DNA from: Bacteroidota bacterium
GTDB lineage: Bacteria; Bacteroidota; Bacteroidia; B-17B0; Aurantibacillaceae
Reading direction: 5' to 3'
Length of the DNA stretch: 64,000 bases
Assembly: GCA_029237825.1 (NCBI GenBank)
Contig: JAQZBQ010000002.1
Span: 248,001 to 312,000, forward strand
Part shown: positions 33,389 through 50,689 of the stretch, piece by piece
Numbering within the stretch: the stretch's first letter is position 1
Layout: each line of letters begins with the position of its first letter
The notes under the pieces: generated by a model
Databases searched by the model: none
The model's input: the letters and a program-made list of their open reading frames with translations, nothing else
What the model was told of the DNA's origin: nothing
Translations under genes and position numbers: made by a program

Positions 33389-35167
33389 TCAATTGTTAAA
33401 AGGTTGCTGAGACTTACTGAGGTTAGTTAAAACATGAGAATTTGTGTAGGCTATAAAATTCTTTGAAAAACGAATTTTAATATTATTTTTGCCGTCGTTC
33501 CGGAGAGGTGTCAGAGTGGTCGAACGAGCAAGCCTGGAAAGTTTGTATACGGGAAACTGTATCGCGGGTTCGAATCCCGCCCTCTCCGCTGATAGGGACT
33601 TAGGCTCAAAAAGAGAACTAAGTCCCTTTTTTATTAAAGCAAAATCGCCCGTATTATGGGCGATTTCAGCAATAATGTAATTCAAATCCGGAGTTCGAAA
33701 TGCCCCCTTTTCCTTGTCATATACCAAACCGGACGGGAAGATAAGGTTTTGCAGTTTTTCTTTGAGGCTAATACTGCCCTCTACCCATAATTTACGCAGG
33801 TTTCGGCATAATAATGAGGCTTCATTTAGCATTTCTTTCAGGTTCGAAATGTAAATACCACAACCATTGATTTCCTTCTGTAAATTCGCATAGTCTGCCA
33901 TATATTTTGCTAGGAAACGATCATAGGTTTCTTTCGGCATTTCCTCTTTTATAAAATGCTTCTCCTCAAGCTTCTCAATATTTCTTTTAAGCTCAGCCAG
34001 TCGGTCTTTAAGCTCCTTTTCCTTCTCTACGTTGCCTTTATTCAGTTCGTAGTAGGTGCTTTCTAATTCCATTAAAACGGCCTCGTTCAAATCCTCCCTT
34101 ATTTGGTAGTTCTCCAAGTCAGTTGCAAATAATTCATGCATCGACTTTGCGCTTTTGTTGCATTTGCATCCGTTTGTTCTGCACTTATAATAATACAGGT
34201 TCTTCTTCTTTACAATATAACCCGTATAAGGTTGTTCGCAATCCGCACACTTAACAAAAACTTTTAAAGGAAGATTAATGTTTTCTAATTTATGCGGCAC
34301 TCCGTATTTAGTAGAGGAGGAAACAATATCGTTCACTTTCATAAACTCTTCCTTTGAGATCATCTTTTCATGAAGCCCATCTTCGATCTTGCCATTTAGC
34401 ATCCCGTGAGAAATCAAACCGCAATAAAAAGGATTAATAAAAATCTTGTGTAATTGTTGCTTATACATTTTTACACCCTGTGCTTGAAGTTTCAAAATAA
34501 TTTCTTCATTCTTCATGCCCTGTATTTTCCATTCCCAAGCTTTCTTTATTTTCTTGCCATCTGCGTTCACAATTATCTTACGTTCACCGTTCGACCTCAC
34601 AATATCATACCCCTGCGGTGGCTTCACTACCCAAATACCTTTTTCAAATTTAGCTTTCATTCCTGCCATAGCAACTTGTTTGCGCTGATCATTATCCCAA
34701 CGCCCAAATAGTAATTGCATATCATGAAATAAAACCCCACTTGCATTAGAGGTATCTATCGGTTCGGTAACTGCTTTAATATGTACGCCATGTTTTTCTC
34801 TTAGTTCATCGGCAATAGAAATTGCTTTCCCACCAGTCCTGCTAAAGCGAGTCATCTTATAAACTAAGATGGTTCCTATTTTACCTTTGCTTTGCCTAAT
34901 AAAACTCAGCATACTCTGAAACTCCTTTCTTGCATCGGTTTTAGCACTTTCATAAGTGTCGCCAAAACGAGATACAATAATTAAATTATTTCGGGCAGCA
35001 TATTCTTCAATAGCTTTCCGTTGCGTTTCTAAGGAATCATTTTTGTCAAATTGCCCTTTGCCGGAAACCCTTGTGTACATTACAACTAAATTGCCTTCAA
35101 CCTTTTTAACGATTGTAGTGCTAAACCGACCAAACTTTGATTCTATTAGTCTTTCGTCTGTGATCAT
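33389..35167 (-). CDS. Large serine recombinase/integrase
   Basis: A 592-aa site-specific recombinase. The resolvase domain (about 27-175) has the Ser nucleophile in YTRVSGKGQ (Ser35) and [16 protein letters not shown] Recombinase domain follows, then a zinc ribbon ([10 protein letters not shown] and [15 protein letters not shown]) and a coiled coil (about 375-450). It probably catalyses integration and excision of the adjacent island. The last roughly 75 residues are the antisense translation of the terminator, tRNA-Ser and its upstream sequence ([14 protein letters not shown] onward), so they are not a conserved domain and would depend on the insertion site. A 62-aa protein gene lies just upstream on the same strand. 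Confidence 0.88.
33463..33491 (+). promoter_or_regulatory. Promoter of tRNA-Ser
   Basis: A TTG (33463-33465) and TATTTTTG (33484-33491), separated by 18 bases, match the Bacteroidota TTG/TAnnTTTG pattern. The -7 element ends 10 bases before the tRNA 5' end at 33502, a fitting distance for the promoter of a stable RNA gene. It lies opposite the last codons of the recombinase ORF. Confidence 0.6.
33502..33588 (+). tRNA. tRNA-Ser (anticodon GGA)
   Basis: An 87-nt cloverleaf. The acceptor stem GGAGAGG (33502-33508) pairs with CCTCTCC (33581-33587), with discriminator G at 33588. The anticodon loop CTGGAAA lies between CAAGC and GTTTG, giving anticodon GGA (serine UCC/UCU). A long variable arm (class II, as expected for Ser) and the T arm GCGGG-TTCGAAT-CCCGC follow. 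CCA is not encoded. The gene is fully intact, although the recombinase ORF runs antisense through it. Confidence 0.95.
33594..33632 (+). terminator. Rho-independent terminator after tRNA-Ser
   Basis: AGGGACTTAG (33594-33603) pairs with CTAAGTCCCT (33618-33627) around a 14-base loop, followed by a T run to 33632. It lies 5 bases after the tRNA and is also read antisense as codons of the recombinase C-terminus. A second perfect 9-bp hairpin (AAATCGCCC at 33642-33650 with GGGCGATTT at 33658-33666) follows. Confidence 0.8.
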
Positions 35168-36151: not shown

Positions 36152-37228
36152 CTAGAATTTCTGCGAAAGGATAATTATGCTCTGATCGTTGGGCTCCAAT
36201 ACTTTGTTTTCTTTATAGAAAGATTCTAGTTCTTTTATGGTGAACCATCTTGATCCAAGAAGCCCTTTATCAAATAATCTTTCAAATTCAGGAGCATTCA
36301 ATGCGACATCCAAAATTTTATCTAGTCGTAGTATTTTATTACCATCTTTGGAAATATCTAAGCGATCTGGAAGTTGGCAAATCGGAATATGCCAGCCACT
36401 TGTGATATAATTGTCTGGATTTTGAAGTTTGTCAGTGGGTCTTAGAAAAGGGACGCAATAGGGAAGTCTATAAGTATTACTACTTGCAATTTTTGATGAT
36501 GCCTCACAATACCCTTTTTTACAAAAGCATGCTGTTGCTGTATTAAGTTGGGGAGCTAGATTTTTTACTTGAGAAAAATATAATATTCCATCCTCCCATA
36601 TTTTATACTGAACTGCAATAATACGAACCATTCCATCATAATGATATTCGTATATTAAATCTACACCGGTTGCGGCCTCTGCTTTGCCGGGATGAAGAAA
36701 TCTAATTACAAATGGATCACCGGATCTTGTTCTAAATATTTTGTATTTGCCGGCAATCTGTTTGACATATTCAAGATTCAATCGCTTCCCATCATAATCG
36801 TTTCGTAATGCTTCATCCTCAGAATAGGAAAGAAACATAGGAGAATGTTCTCGCAATAAGCGAACTAATTTTGCCTTTTCTCTGTTAAGCTGTTTTAATT
36901 TGGTTTCTTTATTAAGAGGATTCTTAACAAGTTTCTCGATATGCTCTATTCTTATTTTAATAAGCTCTTCTGCGCTTATTTGCTTATTCTCATCTATTGA
37001 TCTTGCTTTAGCTTCCTCAAGATATTTTTCATAGACAATATCAATAAATTCTTTTTGTCCCAATATTGAATCTTTTCCACCAAACAAATCAGTAAAATTA
37101 TTCTGAGCAAACTCTATAGCTCGATTATAGGTTACGTTTGTTCTCTCATCCAGCATTGATAAGTTTTCACGAAGAGCATTGACAACCAACCATTCTATTT
37201 GTAATCTTTCATTATTGAGTTTGTCCAT
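36152..37228 (-). CDS. Unrecognised protein with possible PD-(D/E)XK/Mrr-like nuclease core
   Basis: A 358-aa soluble protein. The N-terminal 130 residues are helical with a Lys/Glu-rich coiled-coil-like part. The central segment EAATGVDLIYEY then RIIAVQYK (Asp190, Gln207, Lys209) resembles the D...QxK pattern of Mrr-type nucleases, with Glu184/Glu194 as extra acidic candidates. A Cys cluster (ACFCKKGYC, about 233-241) could bind zinc. The C-terminus has a hydrophobic FERLFDKGLLGSRWF stretch. It is the last gene of the defence run, separated from the deaminase fusion by 328 bp with repeats. Nuclease activity is a hypothesis; I do not recognise the family. Confidence 0.6.
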   Translation of the reverse strand: MDKLNNERLQIEWLVVNALRENLSMLDERTNVTYNRAIEFAQNNFTDLFGGKDSILGQKEFIDIVYEKYLEEAKARSIDENKQISAEELIKIRIEHIEKLVKNPLNKETKLKQLNREKAKLVRLLREHSPMFLSYSEDEALRNDYDGKRLNLEYVKQIAGKYKIFRTRSGDPFVIRFLHPGKAEAATGVDLIYEYHYDGMVRIIAVQYKIWEDGILYFSQVKNLAPQLNTATACFCKKGYCEASSKIASSNTYRLPYCVPFLRPTDKLQNPDNYITSGWHIPICQLPDRLDISKDGNKILRLDKILDVALNAPEFERLFDKGLLGSRWFTIKELESFYKENKVLEPNDQSIIILSQKF

Positions 37229-37360
37229 AATCTAATCCTCTTTCTTGGTACTATCTTATCAACTTTAAGATTATCTAGAGCTTTATCTTGGTAGTTACTT
37301 AGATTATCTATAATTCTTATGCTTGAGTCTTTATTTCTAGTATTTCTTCTAGATTTAATA

Positions 37361-37463
37361 CTAGGACACTTTGTCCTAGTATTTGTCCTAGTTCTAATCT
37401 TAGTATTTCCTCTAAATTCAACTAGGACACTTTGTCTTAGTATTTGTCCTAGTTCTAATACTA
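37361..37463. repeat. 61-bp direct repeat containing CTAGGACA palindromes
   Basis: CTAGGACA-CTT-TGTCCTAG (37361-37379) is a perfect palindrome. It recurs at 37422-37440 with one base changed in the right arm, so the period is 61 bp. Both copies are followed by TATTTGTCCTAGTTCTAAT. Partial copies of the CTAGTATTT flank occur before 37361 and after 37460. The whole gap 37229-37556 is rich in CTAG and has no gene I can support. It lies between the deaminase fusion and the 358-aa gene, both minus strand, so it may control the latter. Confidence 0.65.
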
Positions 37464-37556
37464 GTATTCCTCAAGATATCTAATCTAGTATTCACTCTAG
37501 TTAAACTCTAATTCTTTTTCTTAATTCTAATCTAGTCTTTGTATCTGCTAGTTCTT

Positions 37557-39059
37557 CTATTTAGCTATATACTTAAAGTTTGGAGAATTAAGTTTTTCTC
37601 CATTATCTCCAAGGAGTTTTAATGTTCTCATCTTAGAAAGATGTCTTGAAGCCTTTCTTTCTTCATATCCGAAGTGTTTGGCATATCCTTTCTTGGTCGC
37701 TTCTCCTTTTGATTTAACCCATTCGTACCCAGCTAATTCATCATTATTCAATTCTTTGATTGCAGTATGGTGGGAAACTCTTTTAACCGCTTCCAAAGTT
37801 CTAGGAAAAGTTAGGGTTAGAAAAGGATTTTTCATCTCGTATTCCGGCAATGGTAATTTAAATTTGTCATTTAAAGATCGAAGCGCCTTCATTCCAAATC
37901 CCTTTTCTTCAACGTAATCCATTAAACCAAAAACATAAGTTATTATTGGGTTACGGCTAACGGAAGGTGCCTGAAAGGTATTTAATTGATCTAATGAAAT
38001 AGAAGGCATAGGCGCTCCCGGACTTTTGACAATAATTTTATCATTGTCAATTTCTAGAGCCGATTTAGCACCCTCTATTGAATAATCACGGTGAACAATG
38101 GCATTGATTATAACTTCCCGAAGCACATCAATTGGGAAATCAGGGATATCTTTTCGTTTGAATCCGGAGGTATCTTTTGACAGAGGTAAAACCTTCTTTA
38201 GCCATTCTTCAACCAAATCAGGAATTAATACTAAGGGTTGATCAAAGGTAGCGGGCTCTATTTTATAGTCCCCGTAATCTACATGAGCCATCAAAGCTGC
38301 TTGTTTAAATTTTGCACGAGGATTTTCTCCGAAAAGTAAAATCCCCATTCCGGTAGGGCGATATATATTTGCCTTCTCATCAAAATGCATAACGCCTATA
38401 TCAGCCAAAAAACTTTGGAAAGCTTTGTCTTTAGGCTTATACTTTAACTTTGCTTCCTCAATAAACTTACTTAATGCTTCCTGAGAAAATTGAGAAATAT
38501 CGGCTCGTGGAATCGATTTTTTAAACTCTGAAACTTTAGTTTCCGTTTTTGCAACTTTAGCTCGGTGCGTAGCCTGTTTTAAAAAAGCGGCATTCACTTG
38601 TTCTATCTGTTTTTGAAACTCCCGGTCGAACATAATAACTTTGACCCCTTTCTCCTCCATATATCTAATGCCTTCTCCGGCAACAGTAGGATCAGGATCT
38701 TCAATGCCTACATAAATGGTTTTAATTCTTGCGCTGGTAACATGTGTACAACAACCTCGCTTTGGAGGACTTCGCTTTACACAAGGCTCGAGAGTAGAAA
38801 ATAATACAGCGTCTTTCAAGTCTTTACTTATACATTTACGTTCTATTAAAACATACTCAGCATGATTGCCTTCACGCACCTCACCTCTATGCGCAGTTTC
38901 ATAAGTACCATCAGGAAAAACTAATACTGCGCCCACTTTTGGATTTACTTTTCCATCAGTACGTTTTTCAGCTATAGATTTACGCATAACATCAACAGCA
39001 AGCTTCATATACTTCTTAGGGTCAAACCCTTCTATCTTCTTTGTAGTCTTTTTTGCCAT
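37557..39059 (-). CDS. RibD-like deaminase fused to a RecG-C-terminal-type ATPase-fold domain and wHTH
   Basis: A 500-aa fusion. Residues about 15-145 form a zinc deaminase with HAE (66-68) and EPC (91-93) then GCC (102-104). With the following DPDPTVAGEGIRYMEEKG it resembles RibD deaminases more than dCMP deaminases. A linker leads to a region (about 190-420) of the DUF/HATPase_c_4 type: GMGILLFGENPRAKF, LREVIINAIVHRDY (313-326), ALEIDNDKIIVKSPG and RNPIITYVFG...EKGFGM. The C-terminus (about 440-490) looks like a winged helix. The gene sits 12 bases after the Mrr-type gene. A defence role on nucleotides or nucleic acid is inferred from context. Confidence 0.8.
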   Translation of the reverse strand: MAKKTTKKIEGFDPKKYMKLAVDVMRKSIAEKRTDGKVNPKVGAVLVFPDGTYETAHRGEVREGNHAEYVLIERKCISKDLKDAVLFSTLEPCVKRSPPKRGCCTHVTSARIKTIYVGIEDPDPTVAGEGIRYMEEKGVKVIMFDREFQKQIEQVNAAFLKQATHRAKVAKTETKVSEFKKSIPRADISQFSQEALSKFIEEAKLKYKPKDKAFQSFLADIGVMHFDEKANIYRPTGMGILLFGENPRAKFKQAALMAHVDYGDYKIEPATFDQPLVLIPDLVEEWLKKVLPLSKDTSGFKRKDIPDFPIDVLREVIINAIVHRDYSIEGAKSALEIDNDKIIVKSPGAPMPSISLDQLNTFQAPSVSRNPIITYVFGLMDYVEEKGFGMKALRSLNDKFKLPLPEYEMKNPFLTLTFPRTLEAVKRVSHHTAIKELNNDELAGYEWVKSKGEATKKGYAKHFGYEERKASRHLSKMRTLKLLGDNGEKLNSPNFKYIAK

Positions 39060-39071
39060 TATAATGCAAAT

Positions 39072-39926
39072 TTATTTAAACTCCTCAAAAAATGCTGAAT
39101 CAATATCATAAACCGTTTTGGGCTTAAGTCCTAATTCAAATTTTTCAAACAAATCTACAAGTTTTTCCCCATCTACTAATTCTATAGGTGGAACTCCATC
39201 ACGTATAGCTTCGTTTCTTGCTTCTTTAGTAAATCTTCCGGTTGTTAAAATGATCCCTTTGTCAGCCCGGCCTTGCATGGCACCACGAAAATCTCGAACC
39301 TGTCCAGGCCCTACTGATTCTTTATAGCGTTTACATTGAAATAAAACCTTAAAACTTACCAAATCATTAATCTCCAATAAACCGATGCCGTCTATTCCGT
39401 TGTCCCCAGATTTTCCGGTAACTTGAACATTTTGAAAGCCGCATTCAGTTAATAAGCGTTTGCAAATCCTTTCAAATCCATCCGGACTAAGGCTTTGAAT
39501 AACAGACAGTAAATTATATGAATGTTCTTCTTCTTCAGTTGAATACTCTTCCTCCATAATTTTATTTTCAGGAGAAGTTTTTTTAACCGTACTGTTTTTT
39601 ACCGAAAAACTTGCCTGAACAGTTTTGTACAACTCCATTACATCCTTCTCGCTTAAGTTTGAGCCCAAGCCTTTATCTGTAAGTTTCCAAGTACCGCGAA
39701 CTTTTGAATCAATATAACCAGCTTTCGTTAAATACATTCTCGCCCATTGAATGCGGTTTTTTACTCTTGATTGCCCACTTGGAATGGTTTGTTCAACTTC
39801 AGATTCAGGAATTTTTAATTTCTCAATAACTGAATCTATAACTTCAGAAGTAACGCCTGCCCCTCCCATATCTTTAAGGGTTTTAACCACCGGGTTTATG
39901 TATATTAAAAATTGCGGGCCTTTCAT
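39072..39926 (-). CDS. Mrr-type restriction endonuclease (type IV-like)
   Basis: A 284-aa two-domain protein. The N-terminal Mrr_N winged helix (about 5-90) includes RVKNRIQWARMYLTKAGYID and GTWKLTDKG. An acidic linker (about 120-135) leads to the Mrr catalytic domain (about 145-265) with DGFERICKRLLTECGFQNV, Asp179 in GIDGIG and QCKRYK (Gln197, Lys199). These complete the D...QxK active site. Mrr proteins cut modified DNA, so it may target phage DNA with modified bases. It lies 3 bases after the TIR gene and 12 bases before the deaminase fusion, deep in the defence run. Confidence 0.9.
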   Translation of the reverse strand: MKGPQFLIYINPVVKTLKDMGGAGVTSEVIDSVIEKLKIPESEVEQTIPSGQSRVKNRIQWARMYLTKAGYIDSKVRGTWKLTDKGLGSNLSEKDVMELYKTVQASFSVKNSTVKKTSPENKIMEEEYSTEEEEHSYNLLSVIQSLSPDGFERICKRLLTECGFQNVQVTGKSGDNGIDGIGLLEINDLVSFKVLFQCKRYKESVGPGQVRDFRGAMQGRADKGIILTTGRFTKEARNEAIRDGVPPIELVDGEKLVDLFEKFELGLKPKTVYDIDSAFFEEFK

Positions 39927-39929
39927 AAT

Positions 39930-41108
39930 CTAGTTTTTAGTTTGGATTGTGTCGATAAATTGATGTAATTTCTTCTCATTAGGAAATAGATTAATCAATT
40001 CAGTAAAAGAAATTTCCGGATGATGATCTCCCATTGACCAAGCCGTTAATTCATAAGGATTGTAAATGAAGACAATTGAGTCATTTTTAAAATAATAATT
40101 TCGAAAATTTTTCTTTTCTGCTTCGAACCCATGATCATACACATAAAAATATTCAGAAACATCTTCTTCGTATTCAGTTTTTGCTTTTACCATCAACTTA
40201 TCATGAATGCAATCTCTTAGTACCCCTAGAGAAGATTCAAAATTTTCAAATAATTCCTCCAATTCTAAATTACGCAAAGGATTAATTAAATAATTATTTC
40301 CTTTCGACCAATAATTTCCATGTGCACACCCAGTTTCATATAAAGACCAAAATGAAGTATAACTAATAAAATTTTTGCTAATGAAATGCAAATTAATCGT
40401 ACCGTAACAAGTACTATCTGCTTCAAACATACCCCAACCTTCTTCCTCTTTATTTATTTCAACACCTTTCAAATGATTAAAATAGTTATCTCTTGAACGA
40501 ATCAAATATTTTAAAACATCATTCTGAATCAAAAGGTTTAGCTCCTTTAGTGATTCGGCTTCTATGTTTTTAAACTGAGGGTATCTGATGTCATAAGTTT
40601 GTTTAGGGCTTTTGTCAACATATTCTCCTTTCACGTTTTTTTCATCGCTTTCAAATCCAGCTATCTTATGCTTCCTCGATTCTTCTTCTTTAATCACAAT
40701 TGATCGCTGAAAATTAATAGCTTGTAGAATTTTATTTTGATAGTCAGTTGATGAGTACTCAACCCATTGAAATTTATTAAGTTTAAAAGGAATCTGACAA
40801 GCATCTATTTTAATTGGAATAATATAAATATCAGAATCTAGTTTCTCTTCGCAATAAATGACGGCTTGATTAAATTCTTTTTGCACATAGCCTCGCTTTC
40901 CCACAGATGTACTAGAAAGCAACAACAAAATGAAGTCAGCTTTCTGTAACGCTTCTTGAATCATCAAATCCCAATTTTGACCGGGCAATAAGTCTTTCTT
41001 ATCCATCCAAGGCTCGAATCCATTTTCAGAGAGGAATTTGTGAAGTTTGTCAGCGTACTGAAAATCTTCCGCTGCATAGCTTATGAATACTTTATTATAC
41101 ATCAACAA
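39930..41108 (-). CDS. TIR domain fused to DUF3298/RsiV-like domain
   Basis: A 392-aa protein. The N-terminal TIR domain (about 3-135) has KVFISYAAEDFQYADKL, FEPWMDKKDLLPGQNW and FILLLLSSTSVGKRGY; Glu78 in VQKEF is a good candidate for the NADase catalytic residue. The C-terminal part (about 172-375) reads as DUF3298: RYPQFKNIEAESLKELN, YETGCAHGNYW and FIYNPYELTAWSMGDHHPEI. In RsiV that domain binds lysozyme. No signal peptide or membrane helix is seen, so it is cytoplasmic. TIR plus DUF3298 is unusual; the latter could be the sensor that activates NAD depletion. Its start overlaps the 182-aa gene by 7 bases. Confidence 0.82.
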   Translation of the reverse strand: MLMYNKVFISYAAEDFQYADKLHKFLSENGFEPWMDKKDLLPGQNWDLMIQEALQKADFILLLLSSTSVGKRGYVQKEFNQAVIYCEEKLDSDIYIIPIKIDACQIPFKLNKFQWVEYSSTDYQNKILQAINFQRSIVIKEEESRKHKIAGFESDEKNVKGEYVDKSPKQTYDIRYPQFKNIEAESLKELNLLIQNDVLKYLIRSRDNYFNHLKGVEINKEEEGWGMFEADSTCYGTINLHFISKNFISYTSFWSLYETGCAHGNYWSKGNNYLINPLRNLELEELFENFESSLGVLRDCIHDKLMVKAKTEYEEDVSEYFYVYDHGFEAEKKNFRNYYFKNDSIVFIYNPYELTAWSMGDHHPEISFTELINLFPNEKKLHQFIDTIQTKN

Positions 41109-41650
41109 TTATTTTTTCTGTTATTTTTACCCCAAATACAAAGAAAATTCTCAGCTTCATGCGGCTTTAATTGTTGAATTACTTTTGGGAACGTAGTTAA
41201 AGGGAGGCTTCTTTTCATTTGAATTTTTCCTTTCAATGCTTTATTTACTCCTTTTATAACGCCTGCTTGAACGTATACTTCTTTCGGATAAACCCCCAAG
41301 TTAAATCCAATTCTCAATGCAGTGTCATAGCTCCATAGGGCACCTAATCGAAAGGTATTCTTTCTAACTTGCTCTGTTATTTTAAAAACATCTTCAAAGC
41401 TCTTGCATTTAGCAATTGGATGTATTTTATCTATTCTTAACAATTCATCGAGTCCAGTTCTACAAACTTTAGTTCCAACTCTTCTTTGATGTGAATCCAT
41501 ATTAATTTTGCCGTTGAATTTAGGACTTTGACCTAAAGTCGCTTGGGATATAGCATCAGACAAATCAAGATTTTTGTAATATTTCTCAATCTCTTTTAGA
41601 TGAACACACTCAACCGTTTTATATTTCTTTATAGCTTTATTTAATGTCAT
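41102..41650 (-). CDS. Unknown 182-aa protein of defence run
   Basis: A soluble, basic protein. The segment FRLGALWSYDTALRIGFNLG with PKEVYVQAGV looks like a helix-hairpin-helix or DNA-glycosylase-like core. NMDSHQRRVGTKVC precedes it and LKPHEAENFLCIWGK ends the conserved part. I recall a widespread hypothetical family with a similar YDTALRIG/LCIY pattern but no known activity. The gene lies 11 bases after the HNH gene and overlaps the TIR gene, so it is probably translated with them. It may be a third component of the ATPase-HNH module. Function unknown. Confidence 0.6.
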   Translation of the reverse strand: MTLNKAIKKYKTVECVHLKEIEKYYKNLDLSDAISQATLGQSPKFNGKINMDSHQRRVGTKVCRTGLDELLRIDKIHPIAKCKSFEDVFKITEQVRKNTFRLGALWSYDTALRIGFNLGVYPKEVYVQAGVIKGVNKALKGKIQMKRSLPLTTFPKVIQQLKPHEAENFLCIWGKNNRKNNC

Positions 41651-41661
41651 GTATAATTGAA

Positions 41662-42723
41662 TTAAATAACCCCATTCAAATTATTTTCACAATTGGGGTC
41701 ATTAAGAATGAAATCATAAAATGTTTTCATTAAAATTCCCTTATCAATATTAAAATAATCTTCGAAGGTTTCTGAGGCATCTTCATAAAATGCTTGGTAA
41801 GAGACACCATTTTTTTTACATAGTGTTGTATGCTTTTTTAATATCCAACCTTTCCATATTTTACTTTCTTTGGATATTGTAGCTTTGTATCTACTTTCAA
41901 TATTAAAAACTTGTTTCCACGATTCCATTTTTAAATTATTTGCCGCTGGTTCGCAATCAATGTGTAAAGTCCATGTGTTAGGGTTGTCTAGGTCTGTGTT
42001 AGCAGATTGAATTCCCAGATTAATTTTATGATCGGCAATAGTATTGTCAAGGGGGTAGTATAATGGTCTTTGTGTTGTAGTCGCAGGAATAAAAGGTGTG
42101 TCAATTTGCCCTTTGCTTTTTGAATTGCAATTGTGACACATGGGAAATAAATTTGCGAAATTGACAGTTATAAAAGGATAAATAGATTTAGGCAAGTAGT
42201 GATCATAATCGTCTCTCCCGTCATCATGTTCACATAGTAGACAATCCATTCCACAAAAAGGGCAAACACTATATTCATTTGTTTCTCTAAATGTATTGAA
42301 ATGTGCTTTTAAAGTACCGCATTTATTTACGACTTGCGTATAGCCAAGAATTTTATTATCACCCCAAAGATTATCATAAAGACTTTTAATTTGAACTCTG
42401 ATAGCGGGTGGTAATCCTGTATATTTTATAGGAATTACGGTCATATTACATATACCAAGTATATTGCTGTTCGTGTGGTATACATTATGAACAATTAATT
42501 TTTCGTTTGGTGGTAACGTTACGTATGCATTAAAAATAGCTTCAAGTTTATTATCAATCTGTTCGGTATACTCATCAACAATGTTATTAAAATCTGCTTC
42601 AATGTAATGTGCATGATCGTATACAGGATGGGCGTTGGCAAATAATTGCGCAAAAAAGTAATCTAAATACTTATTTAAGTTCTCAATCGCATGAGGTGAT
42701 ATAGATTTATAGAAGTAAAGCAT
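41662..42723 (-). CDS. HNH endonuclease (PtuB-like, Septu-type)
   Basis: A 353-aa protein. The N-terminal 150 residues are unrecognised. The HNH core has CPFC (154-157), DHYLPKSIYPF (Asp174-His175 catalytic pair), Asn188 in TVNFANLF, and CHNCNSKSKG (196-203) as the second zinc pair. It overlaps the ATPase gene by one base (42723), and AAA ATPase plus HNH in this order is the PtuA-PtuB pair of Septu. It likely cuts nucleic acid under control of the ATPase. It is longer than many PtuB proteins, so a related ATPase-HNH system is an alternative. Confidence 0.85.
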   Translation of the reverse strand: MLYFYKSISPHAIENLNKYLDYFFAQLFANAHPVYDHAHYIEADFNNIVDEYTEQIDNKLEAIFNAYVTLPPNEKLIVHNVYHTNSNILGICNMTVIPIKYTGLPPAIRVQIKSLYDNLWGDNKILGYTQVVNKCGTLKAHFNTFRETNEYSVCPFCGMDCLLCEHDDGRDDYDHYLPKSIYPFITVNFANLFPMCHNCNSKSKGQIDTPFIPATTTQRPLYYPLDNTIADHKINLGIQSANTDLDNPNTWTLHIDCEPAANNLKMESWKQVFNIESRYKATISKESKIWKGWILKKHTTLCKKNGVSYQAFYEDASETFEDYFNIDKGILMKTFYDFILNDPNCENNLNGVI

Positions 42724-44498
42724 TACTTTTCTTTGTTTTCGATTTCCTCTTTAATAGTTCGTAATTTACTAAATAGATCAAATTTTTGAACTGAATCACC
42801 GAATTTGGAATTCAATTTGTCAATAACCGCCCTAAGTTGGTCCAGTGTTTTTACACCATCGATCATATCTTTTAACTCCTTCTTAGCCATTTCGGAAATA
42901 CTTTCTTCCTTTTCGAATATTTCTTCAAGAATAACTGAGATAGAAGCTCCGTACATTTTTACAGTTGGGTTGTCATACTCAATAATTCCATTGGTCTTTG
43001 TAAATCGGTAAACATCTTCTGTTATACAGTCAGAAATTACAAATGGTGAATGCGTTGTTATTATAATTTCTTGCTTTCTAACTTTTTCGATATTTCCATG
43101 TCCATCAAATGTCTCCGCAGCCATATAATTCAACATTTGAATTAATTTAGCTCGCCATTTAGGATTAAAATGTGTATCCGGTTCATCTATAAGGAATAAA
43201 CATCCTTCCTGCTCCATCATTAAAATAGTGCCTATTACTTCATTAAATTGATGTTCTCCATCTGATAGTGCTTTATAATAAATATTTTTGGGAGCTTTTG
43301 AAACATCAATTTTTTTTGAGATAAAAATTTTTTCAATCCTAAAGACCAGTCTTGATGGATCCGGCTTTGACATTTCATCTGAAAAATTGTATGATTTATG
43401 CACTTGAAGCATTAAATCTCTTGTCTTTTTATTAACTAGATAGAGGTTAAAAATTTCCAGCTCATAAAAAACCTTAAATAGATTAAATGCGTTTTCAAAG
43501 TGGTATTTAAAGGAAGCTTTTGTGGCATCGTTTACCAAAAAGTCAAGAATAAGTAAATTGTATTTGTCAACCTTCTTTTCAGTCCATGTCGTAGCACAAA
43601 GTTTTAGCTGTTGAAGATTTGATGCTAAACGATCGTCAAGCGGAATAACTCGTTTATAAATCTCATCTGTATTGATTGTGATTCTGAATGCCTGCAGCTC
43701 ATTAATCTTTAAAACCTCTTTTAAATACGCTAGCTTTTTTCCATCAGCAAGAAGCATATTAGCAATGAATATTGAGAAATTTGTACTATAGTCTAAAAAA
43801 AACAATCTATGATTGTCCGCTAAATCGGGAAGTTCTTTTTTTTCAAATTCCTTAAAATAATGATATTTGAGCTTAAAAAAAGGGTTACTTAACAGCTCAT
43901 TTTGTCCTGAAGTATAGGCGATAAGTTTGCTAGGCAATAATCTTTTTGTATTTAAGCTAATTGCTTTATAGGAATCATTTTCATTTTGACGTTTTAATGA
44001 AAATTCCGGCTCAAATCCCAATTGCTTTGAAACTCGAACATGTATGTAGTTATTAAGGAGTAACTGATTACAGTCCTGATCCCACTCATTTTGTATGATG
44101 TTTTCAATCTCATTAATATAAAGATCCTCAAATTTTAATTTATTGAATTTTGTTAAAGGAGAATTGCTTGATATGTATTTTTCTCGAACTTCATTATAAT
44201 CATTAACAAAAAGATCATAAATGTCCTTTTCAGTCTTTGGCAACAAATATTCAATTTCAAAACCGAAATTTTTGTTTGCTTTCTCAGCTTCTGAAACTGT
44301 AGAAAGATGGGTTATTTCCAAAAAGTAAAATATTTCCGAAAATAATTCGAGAAAATTAGACTTTCCGCTTCCATTTAGTCCCGCAAATACCTTAGTAGAA
44401 AGCCGATCATTATGAAATGAAAGATTGAACTTGTACAGTTTATTTGCCGACAAGCTTCTAAAGTCATCTCCTAATATTTTTACGTTAACTAATTTCAT
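42723..44498 (-). CDS. AAA ATPase (PtuA-like, Septu-type)
   Basis: A 591-aa SMC/ABC-like ATPase of the OLD/PtuA class. The Walker A motif is FAGLNGSGKSNFL (about 38-50), the signature is LSDGEHQF (411-418), Walker B is CLFLIDEPDTHFNP (433-446), and the His switch is IITTHSPFVISD. The coiled middle (about 60-400) is unrecognised. There is no C-terminal TOPRIM domain, unlike OLD nucleases. Its start overlaps the hsdS stop by 4 bases (ATGA), so translation is coupled to the restriction system. It probably senses phage DNA or nucleotide state and controls the HNH protein; this follows from Septu and is inferred here. Confidence 0.85.
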   Translation of the reverse strand: MKLVNVKILGDDFRSLSANKLYKFNLSFHNDRLSTKVFAGLNGSGKSNFLELFSEIFYFLEITHLSTVSEAEKANKNFGFEIEYLLPKTEKDIYDLFVNDYNEVREKYISSNSPLTKFNKLKFEDLYINEIENIIQNEWDQDCNQLLLNNYIHVRVSKQLGFEPEFSLKRQNENDSYKAISLNTKRLLPSKLIAYTSGQNELLSNPFFKLKYHYFKEFEKKELPDLADNHRLFFLDYSTNFSIFIANMLLADGKKLAYLKEVLKINELQAFRITINTDEIYKRVIPLDDRLASNLQQLKLCATTWTEKKVDKYNLLILDFLVNDATKASFKYHFENAFNLFKVFYELEIFNLYLVNKKTRDLMLQVHKSYNFSDEMSKPDPSRLVFRIEKIFISKKIDVSKAPKNIYYKALSDGEHQFNEVIGTILMMEQEGCLFLIDEPDTHFNPKWRAKLIQMLNYMAAETFDGHGNIEKVRKQEIIITTHSPFVISDCITEDVYRFTKTNGIIEYDNPTVKMYGASISVILEEIFEKEESISEMAKKELKDMIDGVKTLDQLRAVIDKLNSKFGDSVQKFDLFSKLRTIKEEIENKEK

Positions 44499-46318
44499 TT
44501 AATGATGTTGAAGTATATTCCTGAGCGTTCTTTTTTTTCACGATCTTTTATTAGCTCAAAATCTTCTTCTGATACATTTAACTGCATGTTTTCGTTCTCG
44601 GCATCATAAAATAATTGTTCTAATTCAATGAATGGGTTCTCCTTATTAATGGCAGAAAAAACAAATGACTTTAAATCATCTGCTCCATTTAAATGTGGAT
44701 ACTTTTTTAATTCCTCTGAAGAATAATAGTCCGGAAAAGTAACATGCTCCTCCATTAAAAAACGAATAAGCATTTCATTTGAGAAATGATAGCCTTGATA
44801 TTTATCTTTTACCCACTCAGCAATTTGTTGGCTACTAACTTTATCCCATGTTAATTTACTTTTTGGTTTTTTAGAGTGAAGTTTCTTCCATTCGCTATAA
44901 AATTTCTTCCCTTTGCTTTTAGCAGTTTGCTCATCAATATCAAAAGGGTCACCATAACGGGTATCTAAATTGTCATAATCGCCTCTTTCTAATTTTTTGA
45001 TTTCATTCTCAAAATACTTTTTGTTTTTTTTTCTTTTAATAGGATCTTGTTCCTCAGGTTCATTGCCTTCGAAGTTGTGCCACTCCTCTTCAATAACGAC
45101 TTTACTCAAATCCAATTCACCTTTAAATGCTTTTTGACTTAAACTACGATATAGATTTTCTAACTCTTGTAAACTATTTTTATATTTTGTTTTAATATCT
45201 TCTGTTTTTTCGACTATCAGACCAAACTTGAATTGAAGCTTTTGCGTTGGATAAATCATTTTAAGGTTCATTACTCCCCCCTTGGTAATATTTTTCATTG
45301 AACCACTTGTCCCAGAAGAGATTTCACTGATAGTTCTTCTAAAGGAACTCCAATTTATACAATACCATAGGAATAAAGAATCAATTTGTTTTTCTTCTGA
45401 AAGAATAAATTTCCAAATTCTATCAGGTAAGGCTAAGTTTTTAACGTCATCAAAAACATATGTAGAAGCTCCAACTAATTCTGTTGTATTCATTCTTGAC
45501 AAAAGGATATCGCCCTTTTTTACTAGATGACTATTCGGAGGAACATAACCTTTAGGTAACCATTTTGATTCATCTTTATTAAAACTTCCCCAAGAAACCG
45601 CACTAGTTTTTAAAACCTTAAAATCACCAGCGGACTCCTTGCTCACTGATTGAATACTTTTACCTGTATCAAGGCGCAAAACCACCTCATTAAGTTTGAT
45701 CGTATCCCATTCCTTTTCATTTTTTACTGGATCTCCAAACATTTTCAGAAAAACACTTTTCACAAATTCATTTAATAACAGAAGAGATTCTTTTCTTTTT
45801 TCAATCAGTACCTCTATTTTACTCAAAGTTTGAGCGATTCTAATTTGATCGTCATAAGGCGGTATAAATATTTTTTCCTTTAAGTAGTTGTCCAGTTTAA
45901 GATTAATAATCCCCGTTGTTTTATTTTGAAATTTGAGTGTCTTCCCTTGAATATGTGCGATAAATAACTGAAAAAAAAGATATTTTGGGTAAATTTTTAT
46001 TTTATCAGGTCTAAGGACTGTTGTAAAATTATTGCATAAATACTCATCTTCAGTTTCTAAGTCAAAGAACACCACACGGCCTACAGGTTGGTTTGGACTT
46101 CCACCTGATTTTTCTATAATAATGTCACCTTTTAGTAATTTTTTTTGCCGAACTTTATTAGCATCTATTTTCCTGTAGACTAAATTTTCAAAATTAATTA
46201 CACCAAGATTGGTGAAGTTTGCCGTTCGAATAACTTTTACACCTTCTCCCGTATTTGCTTCTAATCCCCATTCTCCTGACATTTTATGGGTGATTAAATC
46301 AACAATTCTAGCTTCCAT
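44495..46318 (-). CDS. hsdS: Type I restriction-modification specificity subunit with long C-terminal extension
   Basis: A 607-aa HsdS. TRD1 (about 15-150) ends in KLDNYLKEKIFIPPYDDQ, the central conserved helix is IRIAQTLSKIEVLIEKRKES, and TRD2 (about 200-375) is followed by LQFKFGLIVEKTEDI. Two full TRDs imply recognition of a bipartite DNA site. Normal HsdS is about 400 aa; here about 190 extra residues follow (from about 415), including WKKLHSKKPKSKLTWDKVS and AEWVKDKYQGYHFSNEML. I do not recognise this domain. It abuts hsdM with a one-base overlap and overlaps ptuA-like by 4 bases. Confidence 0.92.
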   Translation of the reverse strand: MEARIVDLITHKMSGEWGLEANTGEGVKVIRTANFTNLGVINFENLVYRKIDANKVRQKKLLKGDIIIEKSGGSPNQPVGRVVFFDLETEDEYLCNNFTTVLRPDKIKIYPKYLFFQLFIAHIQGKTLKFQNKTTGIINLKLDNYLKEKIFIPPYDDQIRIAQTLSKIEVLIEKRKESLLLLNEFVKSVFLKMFGDPVKNEKEWDTIKLNEVVLRLDTGKSIQSVSKESAGDFKVLKTSAVSWGSFNKDESKWLPKGYVPPNSHLVKKGDILLSRMNTTELVGASTYVFDDVKNLALPDRIWKFILSEEKQIDSLFLWYCINWSSFRRTISEISSGTSGSMKNITKGGVMNLKMIYPTQKLQFKFGLIVEKTEDIKTKYKNSLQELENLYRSLSQKAFKGELDLSKVVIEEEWHNFEGNEPEEQDPIKRKKNKKYFENEIKKLERGDYDNLDTRYGDPFDIDEQTAKSKGKKFYSEWKKLHSKKPKSKLTWDKVSSQQIAEWVKDKYQGYHFSNEMLIRFLMEEHVTFPDYYSSEELKKYPHLNGADDLKSFVFSAINKENPFIELEQLFYDAENENMQLNVSEEDFELIKDREKKERSGIYFNIIK

Positions 46319-47889
46319 TATAAAACTCTTTTTAGTTCGTCAATTCCTTTGACAATTTCCTTTTCCAATATTGATAATTTATTTAAAATCACTGTAGGAG
46401 TTTCAAATTTAACATCAACATATTCTTCATTCTTGTAACGGCTTATGCTTAAATCATATTCATTTTTAATTATTTCCGTTTTTGGAACAAGAAAATGATT
46501 TTTAGTTCTATCAACGCTTTTTTTCTTGTTTTTAAATTCTTCAATTATTAAATGGAGATCGCCAAAATCACGTTCTCCATTTGGCATAATCAATTCAGTC
46601 CTTTTATCATCTAAGCTTCGACCATCGTTTTTCATTTCATAAAACCAAATATTATTGGTTTCTCCTCCCTTAGTAAAAATCAATATGGCGGTTGCAACTC
46701 CGGTATAAGGTTTAAAAACTCCACTTGGTAAACTAATGACAGCTTTTAATTCACATTTGTCAATTAATATTTTTCTTGTTTCAACAAAAGCTTTACCACT
46801 TCCAAACAACACTCCTTGTGGGACAACTACACCGGCAGTACCACCCAAGCGAAGCATTTTGTAAATTCTCTCAATAAATAATAACTCACTTTTTGTAGTA
46901 CTAATACTAAAAGTTTCATTTAAGTCACCTTTATCAATATTACCTGTAAATGGAGGATTTGCCAAGACAATATTGTAAAAATTATCTTCATTATAATTTT
47001 TGCTTAATGTATCCTTGTAATCAATTTTAGGTTGACTAATACCATGCATCATTAAATTCATTAAACCAATTCGAATCATAGTAGGATCAATATCAAACCC
47101 GTAAAAAGTTTCTCGCTCCAACAACTCTTTCATTTTCTCATCAACCAACTTATCAGCTAATGAGCCTCGTATGAAGCCATTTTCATCGGGTTTACAGTAT
47201 TCCTTACTTGTATATTGTGTTATCAAATATTTGTATGAAGCCAATAAAAAACCTGCCGTTCCACTTGCGGGATCGGCAATCTTATCTCCTAGTTTTGGTT
47301 GAAGCAACTCAACGATTAATTCAATAATGTGCGTTGGCGTTCTGAATTGCCCGTTTTTACCGGCTTGATTTAACTCGCTTAATAAATGCTCATAAAAATC
47401 ACCTTGCGCATCTATAAAACGATTTTCCTTTTGAAGTTCCACAAAAATTTCATCTATTTTCTTTACAGACTCTGTAAGCATTCTTGGGCTAGGTATCAGC
47501 AAAGCCGCATTCTGCATATGTTTAGTGAAATAGGAATTTTCATCATCTAATTGTTTTATAAAAGGAAAAACTTTAGTTTGTACCAACGTATACATTTCCT
47601 CTGAAGGCATTTGTTTAAAGTAACTCCACCGTAATGTTTCCTTTTCTATTGCATTTTCTTCTTTAGTAACATCTACACCAGGAGGAAAAAACCTTCCTTC
47701 AAAAACGGATGTATATTTAGTTCCTAAAAAATCAGCATTACTAATGCTACGTTGATCGTTATCATCTAACTGCTTAATAAAAAGCAAATAGGTAATTTGT
47801 TCAATAGCATTCAATGGGTTGGAAATCCCACCACTCCAAAACTTTTCCCAAAGTTCTCTGACTTTACTTTTAATTGATGTTGTAAGCAT
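46318..47889 (-). CDS. hsdM: Type I restriction-modification methyltransferase
   Basis: A 523-aa N6-adenine methyltransferase. The N-terminal HsdM_N domain (about 1-140) includes KVRELWEKFWSGGISNPLNA. The SAM motif is DPASGTAGFLLASYKYL, and the catalytic NPPF motif is in VLANPPFTGNIDKGDLN. It protects host DNA and supplies the scaffold that binds HsdS and HsdR. All catalytic motifs are intact. It starts one base after hsdR ends and overlaps hsdS by one base, so hsdR-hsdM-hsdS form one operon. Confidence 0.95.
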   Translation of the reverse strand: MLTTSIKSKVRELWEKFWSGGISNPLNAIEQITYLLFIKQLDDNDQRSISNADFLGTKYTSVFEGRFFPPGVDVTKEENAIEKETLRWSYFKQMPSEEMYTLVQTKVFPFIKQLDDENSYFTKHMQNAALLIPSPRMLTESVKKIDEIFVELQKENRFIDAQGDFYEHLLSELNQAGKNGQFRTPTHIIELIVELLQPKLGDKIADPASGTAGFLLASYKYLITQYTSKEYCKPDENGFIRGSLADKLVDEKMKELLERETFYGFDIDPTMIRIGLMNLMMHGISQPKIDYKDTLSKNYNEDNFYNIVLANPPFTGNIDKGDLNETFSISTTKSELLFIERIYKMLRLGGTAGVVVPQGVLFGSGKAFVETRKILIDKCELKAVISLPSGVFKPYTGVATAILIFTKGGETNNIWFYEMKNDGRSLDDKRTELIMPNGERDFGDLHLIIEEFKNKKKSVDRTKNHFLVPKTEIIKNEYDLSISRYKNEEYVDVKFETPTVILNKLSILEKEIVKGIDELKRVL

Positions 47890-47890
47890 A

Positions 47891-50689
47891 TTATGCGGCT
47901 AATTTTTGAATGAATATTATTATTTCGTCAATTTCTTTATTGGAAAAAACACCACGAATGCCATCAGGGTGTATTCTTGTGAATGGTGCAGTAATCAAAT
48001 CTTTTTTCTCAACATCACCTTTTTCAATTAAGAAAATTCGAAGTAAATTCAAGAATTCTAATTGACGACTGTTTAAGTATGTATGTTCTTCAATAAACTG
48101 TTCAAATGATTTTGAGACTGAATCCGGAAAGGATTCTAGTATTTCAATACCCAAAATATGTTTAACAAACTGAACTAGTTGGGCTTTTCTATGGTTATAA
48201 ACTCGTCTAAGCAAATCTACTGTTATATGCGGATGCTCATTGTGTAATTGCTCTGCTAATTGTTCCGCTTCTGTTAAAGTAATTTCTCTTCCTTGCTTTA
48301 ATTTTTGTAAAAGAGGATTGTTAGATACCAATTCATTTACTTTCTTTTCAACCAATTCGCGATACTTTTCGATGCTCAATGCCTCATGTTGCGGGCCAAA
48401 TTCAACATATTCTTTTTGACTTACAATATCTTTAAAATTAAATTTAGCAGGGCCGAGTGGAACAACAGACTCCCTATATTTCATTAAAGGGCAAAGTTTT
48501 TGTATTAATTCTTCGAATTTATTCTCAGTAATTGAAGCCCAAAAATGATTGGTTTGACTTGTTCGAATTATTTCTTCCTCTTTAGCAACAGTATTTACAG
48601 ATAAGGGCAATTCGGAAATCTCTTCTCTAATACTTTCTTTAAGCGCTTCAAATTTTTCTTTTTCATTTGCCAAATGTGCTAATGAAACTTCAAGAATGTC
48701 TTTTTCAAAACGCATAGCTTTAAATTCAGCGTCAGAAACTGTTCTGAATAATGGTTTTACTACAGCTTTTAAAAATTCTAATTTATCACTGGTTAAAAGA
48801 TTCCAGAAGTTCTCATCATCCAATCGCTGCAACTCATGCTTGGCATCTAAAATCACGATAGAATTATTCGGAAGGGTTGCAATTTGCTTTCGCAACTTTA
48901 CTATTTCTTTCGTCACAATTTCGACTTCATTTAATTCTTGTGCCTTTTCAATTTTATCTAAACGAATTCCAAATAATCTAACTGGTAAAGGTAAAGTTGT
49001 AGTTGCCTCTTTACCACGAGGATTTAATTTAAAGTATTCGAAATTATCCCAACAATCTAAAATCAGAAAAATATTTTTTTCTGTACACCACGATTTCATT
49101 TTTGTTGGCTCTAATAAGCGTGTACCACGCCCAATCATCTGCCAAAATTTTGTATAGGAATAAACAGGTTTAGCGAAAACTAAATTCACTAATTCTCTAA
49201 CATCTATTCCGGTATCAAGCATATCCACACTTATTGCTATACGTGGCATATCGTTATTTGTGAACTGATCTAACAATCCTCCTTTACCGTAAACACGAGG
49301 GTCATCACTAACCAATACTTTAGCTAATTCACCTTTATATTCGGGATAAAAAGCATCAAACAGCTCTTCCATTCTTCGAGCATGTTTCATTGTTGTGCAG
49401 AAAATTATAGTCTTTCCGGGTAGCACACCATTCGCATCTTTAATGGATTCTTCCATAAATTCACGAACAATTAAGGCATTTGTAGCTTTATTAATTACCG
49501 ATTTTTCTATTTCAGTTCCTTCGTAATTTATTTCAGATACGTCTTTCCCATCCAAAATCAAATTTTTCTGATCCTCTAAAGAAATAGTTCGTTTATTAAT
49601 TCCTTCTTCCTGAAACTTGGTTTTAATTTTCATTACTTGAAAGCCACTCAAATAAGGTGGAATGTGATTAAGGGCTTCTTCATACGAATATGCAAAGGTT
49701 GGAACTCCTTCTTCACATTCAAATAATTTAAAAGTATTATGATCTATAACATCAGTTGGAGTGGCAGTTAATCCTAGGGTGATAGTATTGAAGTAATCTA
49801 AAATTTCTTGGTAAGTATTATAAATACTTCTATGACTTTCATCAACTACAATCAAATCAAAGAAATGAGGGCTTAAAGTTTTTTCACTATCTCTAATTAC
49901 GTTTAACATAGTCGGATAAGTAGAAACATAAATCCTTCTATCAGTTGCAATTTCTTTTTCTCCAGGTTTTGGCCAGCGAGGCTCGTTCGGAAGGAATTCT
50001 TTAAATGCTTCAAGAGTTTGATCCCTTAATGCGATGCGATCAACCAAAAACAAAACTCGCTCTGCCCAACCAGCTCTCATCAATGTATCAACTAAAGCAA
50101 TGCAGGTACGTGTTTTTCCTGTACCCGTTGCCATCACCAATAGAAATTTACGTTTGCGTTTTTCAATCGCTTCCATTACTGCTCTTATAGATGCGATTTG
50201 ATAATCCCGTCCGGCAATTTTGGTGTTAATTAATTCACTCGCTAATGCTTTACGAGCTTTTCGTATATATTGGTAGCGTTCTAGGTCTTCACGAGTAGGA
50301 AAACCGTATACCTTCTTTGGTGGATAATTTTCTAAATCCCAAAAATAAATATCATGTCCGTTTGTGTAAAAGCAAAAAGGTAATTCGCCTCCGTGTTGGG
50401 CGTGAATATTTGTACAGTATTGTTTGGCTTGTTCTTTTCCGATGTTGGCATCAACCGAGGATTTTTTCGCTTCAACGACCGCTAAAGGCTTACCATCTTT
50501 GCCTAATAAAACGTAATCACTGAACTGACGACCTGAGTATTTGGTTGTAGGTTCTTCTACCCCGAGCCGGACTCGAACATCAATATCAAACTCCTCAACA
50601 ACTTGAGTATGATCACTAACATTCCAACCTGCAAGTTGCAAGCGCTTATCAATAATATCCTTTCGGGTTTTGGCTTCGTTGCCGGACAT
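47891..50689 (-). CDS. hsdR: Type I restriction endonuclease motor/nuclease subunit
   Basis: A 932-aa restriction subunit. The N-terminal nuclease domain has Asp58 in FSDYVLLG and the EAK catalytic pair in LAVVEAKKSS (Glu73, Lys75). The helicase core follows: Walker A ATGTGKTRTCIALV, DESHRSIYN (DEAH-type box), SAT-like LGLTATPTD, and the C-terminal motif QMIGRGTRL. The last about 250 residues match the EcoEI_R_C type region. It translocates DNA and cuts at a distance when sites are unmodified. It is the first gene of the defence run and diverges from the 375-aa protein gene, with 118 bp between. Confidence 0.95.
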   Translation of the reverse strand: MSGNEAKTRKDIIDKRLQLAGWNVSDHTQVVEEFDIDVRVRLGVEEPTTKYSGRQFSDYVLLGKDGKPLAVVEAKKSSVDANIGKEQAKQYCTNIHAQHGGELPFCFYTNGHDIYFWDLENYPPKKVYGFPTREDLERYQYIRKARKALASELINTKIAGRDYQIASIRAVMEAIEKRKRKFLLVMATGTGKTRTCIALVDTLMRAGWAERVLFLVDRIALRDQTLEAFKEFLPNEPRWPKPGEKEIATDRRIYVSTYPTMLNVIRDSEKTLSPHFFDLIVVDESHRSIYNTYQEILDYFNTITLGLTATPTDVIDHNTFKLFECEEGVPTFAYSYEEALNHIPPYLSGFQVMKIKTKFQEEGINKRTISLEDQKNLILDGKDVSEINYEGTEIEKSVINKATNALIVREFMEESIKDANGVLPGKTIIFCTTMKHARRMEELFDAFYPEYKGELAKVLVSDDPRVYGKGGLLDQFTNNDMPRIAISVDMLDTGIDVRELVNLVFAKPVYSYTKFWQMIGRGTRLLEPTKMKSWCTEKNIFLILDCWDNFEYFKLNPRGKEATTTLPLPVRLFGIRLDKIEKAQELNEVEIVTKEIVKLRKQIATLPNNSIVILDAKHELQRLDDENFWNLLTSDKLEFLKAVVKPLFRTVSDAEFKAMRFEKDILEVSLAHLANEKEKFEALKESIREEISELPLSVNTVAKEEEIIRTSQTNHFWASITENKFEELIQKLCPLMKYRESVVPLGPAKFNFKDIVSQKEYVEFGPQHEALSIEKYRELVEKKVNELVSNNPLLQKLKQGREITLTEAEQLAEQLHNEHPHITVDLLRRVYNHRKAQLVQFVKHILGIEILESFPDSVSKSFEQFIEEHTYLNSRQLEFLNLLRIFLIEKGDVEKKDLITAPFTRIHPDGIRGVFSNKEIDEIIIFIQKLAA

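Follow-up and report, generated by a model that had tools for sequence, protein, structure and literature searches.

PrrC, the product of a toxin-like gene linked to a type I restriction-modification (RM) operon, is held silent by the physically associated type I enzyme EcoprrI and is released by a phage anti-restriction peptide (PMC2610378). In AvcD, a deoxycytidylate deaminase toxin (PMC10511110), and in dCTP deaminase defence, the presumed antiphage output is a zinc deaminase accompanied by a P-loop NTPase. In the Shedu protein VcSduA, an N-terminal GHKL domain has been proposed to control a PD-(D/E)XK nuclease (PMC12137116), and for BREX and related systems, Schlafen–minimal histidine kinase–wHTH proteins have been described that serve as backup effectors (PMC12839542).

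Here we analyse a protein, referred to as DEAM, encoded in a 64,000-nucleotide stretch of Bacteroidota DNA (the window). Like AvcD and the dCTP deaminases, DEAM has a zinc deaminase as its presumed antiphage output, but this deaminase belongs to a RibD-type lineage and is joined to a GHKL–wHTH module; no P-loop family was matched in a Pfam scan of 81 DEAM members. As in VcSduA, a GHKL ATPase domain is the proposed controller of a defence catalytic domain, although the output of DEAM would be a deaminase and its GHKL domain is C-terminal. With the Schlafen–HATPase_c_4–wHTH proteins, DEAM shares a HATPase_c_4 and winged-helix C-terminal platform and a location in or beside RM/BREX-type loci, but it carries a RibD-fold deaminase where these proteins have an N-terminal RNase domain, and the SLFN_AlbA_2 RNase domain is among the matches of none of the 81 members. 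Finally, like PrrC (EcoprrI) and RloC, DEAM is the product of a toxin-like gene with linkage to type I RM operons, but it lacks their ABC ATPase and HEPN nuclease (no Pfam match to an ABC ATPase or the ACNase triad was found in DEAM) and is also linked to systems other than type I. By its position and architecture, DEAM would fit the guard logic of PrrC, with a deaminase as the output instead. No DEAM-type system is listed in PADLOC 2023 or NCBIfam, and the literature searched yielded no deaminase–HATPase/Schlafen-type defence protein, an earlier description being still possible. We consider DEAM to be probably an uncharacterised antiviral effector, because its relatives recur inside RM operons across many phyla.

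The DEAM protein and its operon

The DEAM gene, which lies on the minus strand and starts with an ATG codon, comprises the following features:

37557–39059, minus strand: DEAM, a deaminase–HATPase_c_4–wHTH protein of 500 aa (supported by the open reading frame, Pfam, the structural model and homologues)
38556–39035, minus strand: RibD-type deaminase domain, residues 9–168 (VIA Z 21.5 to 4g3m; dCMP_cyt_deam_1)
38751–38864, minus strand: zinc/catalytic motif residues H66-A-E68, P92-C93 and C103 (homologue conservation)
37560–38558, minus strand: C-terminal platform, residues 168–500, with a linker domain, a GHKL-type ATPase and a winged helix (like DIP2311, 3lmm)
38082–38123, minus strand: GHKL N-box LREVIINAIVHRDY, residues 313–326 (homologue conservation)
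37806–38072, minus strand: HATPase_c_4 (PF13749), residues 330–418 (Pfam, 52.9 bits)

An initial annotation of the window described DEAM as a RibD-like deaminase fused to a RecG-C-type ATPase fold and a winged helix in a defence setting. The open reading frame, its length and every motif quoted there were found at the quoted residues, including E91-P-C93, G102-C103-C104, RNP (369–371) and EKGFGM (385–390), and both halves of the description hold. Pfam assigns residues 16–118 to dCMP_cyt_deam_1 (42.6 bits, cut-off 25) and residues 330–418 to HATPase_c_4 with a score exceeding twice its cut-off of 26. The structural model, built from an 81-sequence alignment (mean pLDDT 91.5) and superseding a poor earlier one based on 8 sequences (pLDDT 76.6), superposes residues 9–168 onto Bacillus subtilis RibG (4g3m) with a VIA Z-score of 21.5 and an rmsd of 2.3 Å over 145 aa (32% identity); TadA, yeast cytosine deaminase and dCMP deaminase rank behind RibG, with Z-scores below 16. 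The solved structure closest to the C-terminal 330 aa is that of DIP2311 (3lmm; VIA Z 22.0 over 292 aa for residues 168–500), with an rmsd of 9.5 Å that calls for caution and probably reflects domain movement. DIP2311, which combines HATPase_c_4 with a winged helix, has a different N-terminal part and itself has no assigned function. The winged helix is formed by the C-terminal helices of the model (residues 439–479) and is also indicated by the 3lmm match. No PADLOC model matched DEAM over its full length; the matches were partial, with E-values between 2e-12 and 3e-6, and came from Argonaute-associated models. All of them extend into the GHKL half, and the identification of DEAM as a pAgo was rejected.

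An operon of nine genes, ordered HsdR-HsdM-HsdS-AAA(TIGR04435)-HNH-u182-TIR-Mrr-DEAM, ends with DEAM; its intergenic gaps range from -7 to +12 bp. The genes preceding DEAM are:

47891–50689, minus strand: HsdR, the type I restriction subunit, with which the operon begins (PADLOC REase_I, 9.3e-169)
46318–47889, minus strand: HsdM, type I methyltransferase (PADLOC MTase_I, 4.9e-162)
44495–46318, minus strand: HsdS, type I specificity subunit (PADLOC Specificity_I, 9.6e-84)
42723–44498, minus strand: restriction system-associated AAA ATPase (TIGR04435), PtuA-like (384.5 bits, cut-off 300)
41662–42723, minus strand: HNH/PtuB-like protein (PDC-M62B, PtuB)
41102–41650, minus strand: 182-aa protein with no family match in Pfam, PADLOC, NCBIfam or PHROGs
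39930–41108, minus strand: TIR + DUF3298 protein (TIR_2, 88 bits)
39072–39926, minus strand: Mrr-type restriction endonuclease (Mrr_cat, 114 bits; Mrr_N)

The protein encoded at 39930–41108 joins a TIR domain to a DUF3298/PdaC-like region inside a type I RM operon. DEAM had been placed between Mrr and a possible nuclease, a description that stands for Mrr, whose gene is located 12 bp upstream of DEAM, but less well for the nuclease: the 358-aa ORF downstream of DEAM (36152–37228) has no convincing match in Pfam, PADLOC, NCBIfam or PHROGs and no meaningful match in the PDB, and its GVDL...QYK stretch, which recalls PD-(D/E)XK nucleases, is only suggestive. Just upstream of this ORF, positions 37360–37468 hold two tandem 48-nt copies, 94% alike, each containing a near-palindrome ACTAGGACA-N-TTTGTCCTAGT; the arrangement looks like a paired operator. 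Further along, the 3' end of a serine recombinase ORF (33389–35167, minus strand) runs antisense through a tRNA-Ser gene (33502–33589, plus strand). Matches to this tRNA-Ser and to the sequence beyond it occur in several genomes of the genus and suggest an integration hotspot. When the tRNA-Ser region was compared with the remainder of the window, no 14-bp match turned up that could represent attachment-site repeats, and searching for the flanks in the genus did not define an empty island site.

An old fusion distinct from RibD

A whole-protein search of 395 Bacteroidota genomes yielded seven other full-length DEAM homologues, 38–45% identical, and a search of the same genomes with the deaminase half alone (E < 1e-25) returned the window protein and the same seven, in frames of 497–509 codons. 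Scanning 84,980 species genomes then gave 270 confirmed relatives, and nearly all of the best 80 of these 270, which were kept, are full length. Altogether, at least 87 homologue loci carry both halves. The family spans more than 20 named phyla, half of its members being Bacteroidota, some of the phylum assignments being possibly wrong because many relatives lie on MAG contigs; isolates with DEAM include Flavobacterium luteum, Pedobacter insulae, Blastopirellula marina DSM 3645 and a Synechococcus sp. DEAM is absent from the 19 other genomes of the window's genus, the patchiness expected of an accessory gene, and no full-length homologue was found in plasmid and phage collections.

The two halves are co-conserved, a point on which the reading of the initial annotation hinged: both Pfam families are matched in all 81 aligned members, arguing that the fusion is not due to chance. 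H66 and E68 are kept in 80 of the 81 sequences and P92, C93 and C103 in all of them, the conservation of HAE and EPC being partly selected for since both were contained in the scan patterns. C103 and the GHKL residues were absent from these patterns, and the seven homologues found independently of them carry all the conserved residues. In the GHKL half, E315, N319, H323, R324 and Y326 are kept in 81/81 homologues, and G348, R369-N370, E384 and G389 in 80–81. Pairwise identities in one half correlate with those in the other (Mantel r 0.60, the best of 1000 permutations reaching 0.09), mean identity is 60% in the deaminase half versus 42% in the sensor half, and the C-terminal halves form a single clade (100/100) separate from the sampled Schlafen- and DUF4062-type proteins. 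Co-divergence, the single clade and the better conservation of the deaminase half fit one old fusion whose putative catalytic half is under constraint.

RibD (TIGR00326) is the nearest curated family to the deaminase half, at 62.1 bits against a cut-off of 156.35, and the two share the deaminase fold together with the HAE and PC...C zinc/Glu site (Z ~21). Beyond this site they differ: (i) the RibD_C reductase domain, present in 17/17 true RibDs, is among the matches of 0/81 DEAM members; (ii) Asn26, His45, His80, Gly82 and Thr84, invariant in the 17 RibDs (numbering of the RibD of the window genome, L124), are replaced or gapped in nearly all DEAM proteins, Asn26 being retained in a small minority that includes the window protein (N39); (iii) around the zinc/Glu site, a set of residues peculiar to DEAM is invariant, namely R58-G59, R62, G64, K75, R96 and K100. 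We take RibD Asn26, His45 and His80 to be the equivalents of Asn23, His42 and His76, which contact the substrate in B. subtilis RibG. In a tree, DEAM, three viral deaminases and one further fusion split from RibD at 100/99. The window genome, moreover, carries its own complete RibD (L002) and a DHBP synthase. The likeness of DEAM to RibD is one of fold only, and the loss of RibD-invariant residues makes a different substrate probable.

Relatives with other architectures were also observed. Three deaminase-only relatives with other extra domains occur on viral contigs (L112:10010-10927, L113:9977-10870 and L114:4282-5316), and in a 413-aa open frame on the minus strand of L140 a related deaminase forms the C-terminal part of a different fusion, another architecture of the DEAM deaminase lineage, whose N-terminal part is, by eye, sigma-factor-like. 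On the other side, Bacteroidota also encode proteins in which the DEAM-type C-terminal platform is joined to SLFN_AlbA_2 or DUF4062.

Gene neighbourhoods across the family

The recurrent context of DEAM is type I restriction-modification together with other RM-like systems. HsdM, HsdS or HsdR is encoded at 27 of the 87 homologue loci, in about a dozen phyla, HsdM-HsdS-DEAM-HsdR and HsdR-DEAM-HsdM-HsdS being common orders. HsdS is present at 19 loci against 0.8 domains expected from 237 Methylase_S domains in 99 Bacteroidota genomes and 1.2 Mb of DEAM flank (Poisson P 5e-20), a value that is indicative because the background is restricted to Bacteroidota, genome size was approximated (3.6 Mb), HsdS was called with phmmer and not with the Pfam model, and the loci are not fully independent. 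The spacing is also tight: in 17 of 75 loci, DEAM starts no more than 20 bp from the upstream stop codon, and at least 10 of these 17 upstream genes encode HsdS, HsdR, HerA or a type III Res. The defence context claimed in the initial annotation holds, both in the window and at the homologue loci, but the presumed companions of DEAM do not recur, since Mrr was found at 1/87 loci and neither TIR nor the 358-aa ORF at any; the three were rejected as conserved partners.

Other systems adjoin DEAM as well. PglX-like methylases are adjacent at some loci, two of which also have DrmD/DpdE-like helicases; Piwi proteins are encoded near DEAM at loci L060, L062 and L071, HerA at L060, L082 and L090, a type III Res at L101 and a Schlafen protein at L060. 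At L119, the nearest upstream gene on the same strand encodes an AAA_13 protein of the PrrC/RloC type. At more than half of the loci, no RM or defence gene was recognised, many contigs being short and only some neighbours having been typed. Neither a DHBP synthase nor a second RibD, the two riboflavin genes searched for, lies near DEAM at the 87 loci, and a riboflavin-operon setting, which would have told against a defence role, was not seen.

Two side observations concern individual loci. An HsdR with a C-terminal SLFN_AlbA_2 domain (L111:853-4020) adjoins a DEAM gene, and a gene of about 150 aa, DprA/SLOG-like (cluster c5), recurs at or near the 3' side of DEAM at L037, L038, L039, L040 and L073, lying at L038 beside a DrmD-like helicase and a PglX-like methylase.

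Proposed mode of action and alternatives

We propose, with a probability of roughly 0.58, that DEAM is an accessory effector that travels with RM systems, in which a silent deaminase output is controlled by a GHKL–wHTH switch and leads to an abortive outcome. The N-terminal half would be the output domain, a zinc deaminase of RibD-type fold with a rebuilt substrate pocket, and the C-terminal half a sensor or switch for the RM complex or phage DNA, which it would read or dock on. Control of the deaminase by the ATPase half, suggested from the start, remains the natural reading of the architecture. The deaminase would be silent in uninfected cells and would be activated upon engagement or inhibition of the RM machine, through an ATP-driven rearrangement that probably involves a dimer. 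Active DEAM would then deplete or modify an essential nucleotide, an option slightly preferred because the fold is closest to that of RibD, or edit nucleic acid, and the result may be growth arrest or abortive infection, as for PrrC with EcoprrI. Docking on one specific partner is unlikely, given that the neighbours of DEAM include PglX-like, Piwi, HerA and type III systems as well.

The strongest alternative, possible although we would bet against it, keeps this architecture but takes the substrate of the deaminase to be tRNA, mRNA or phage DNA/RNA instead of free nucleotides. The deaminase occupies the slot filled by the Schlafen RNase on the same platform, the family has specific invariant basic residues (R58, R62, K75, R96, K100 and R111), and TadA structures with ssDNA also align to DEAM (Z 15.7); however, the small-molecule enzyme RibD is clearly the nearest fold (Z 21 versus below 16). 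The Pfam family Inv-AAD, matched by 79/81 DEAM members, might seem to favour a nucleic-acid substrate, but true RibDs match it too (11/17) and match MafB19 in 17/17 cases, so that these families do not discriminate between substrates and were set aside as uninformative.

Two general considerations count against the proposed effector reading: transcription regulator is a frequent annotation of HATPase_c_4/wHTH proteins, and deaminase-fold proteins can serve metabolism. A second alternative, which we regard as unlikely, is that DEAM regulates the transcription or assembly of RM operons, its winged helix binding DNA, its GHKL domain binding ATP and its deaminase fold sensing a ligand. The C-terminal winged helix, the position inside RM operons and the fact that COG2865-type proteins are commonly named regulators are consistent with such a role. 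Against it, almost no member has lost the zinc ligands or the catalytic Glu, and conservation is higher in the deaminase half than in the sensor half, which suggests catalysis; DEAM is also found with systems as unrelated as type I, PglX-like, Piwi, HerA and type III.

That DEAM is a dedicated partner of Mrr, of the TIR protein or of the 358-aa ORF in a new multi-gene system is very improbable: the operon shared in the window speaks for it, but the neighbourhood counts largely refute it, and 328 bp separate the ORF from DEAM. Least probable of all is a riboflavin-pathway or other metabolic deaminase present in a genomic island by happenstance, for although RibD is the closest fold and curated family, the missing RibD_C domain, the lost RibD-invariant residues, the separate RibD and DHBP synthase of the genome, the riboflavin-free neighbourhoods and the absence from the 19 genomes of the genus all argue against it.

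Returning to the RM-associated effector, we would give even odds to the broader proposition that DEAM exemplifies a widespread, so far unrecognised class of antiviral effectors, in which a RibD-like deaminase, switched by a GHKL domain when restriction is engaged or disabled, rewrites nucleic acid or a nucleotide pool. If new, such an activity on either kind of substrate might find use as a reagent. DEAM, a conserved module within one protein and with strong genomic linkage, connects restriction-modification with the deaminase superfamily, to which APOBEC-like antiviral enzymes also belong. If the proposed role is correct, the Schlafen-type platform would be a general socket for interchangeable effectors (Schlafen, DUF4062 or deaminase), an effector swapping that would resemble that of CBASS and Thoeris.
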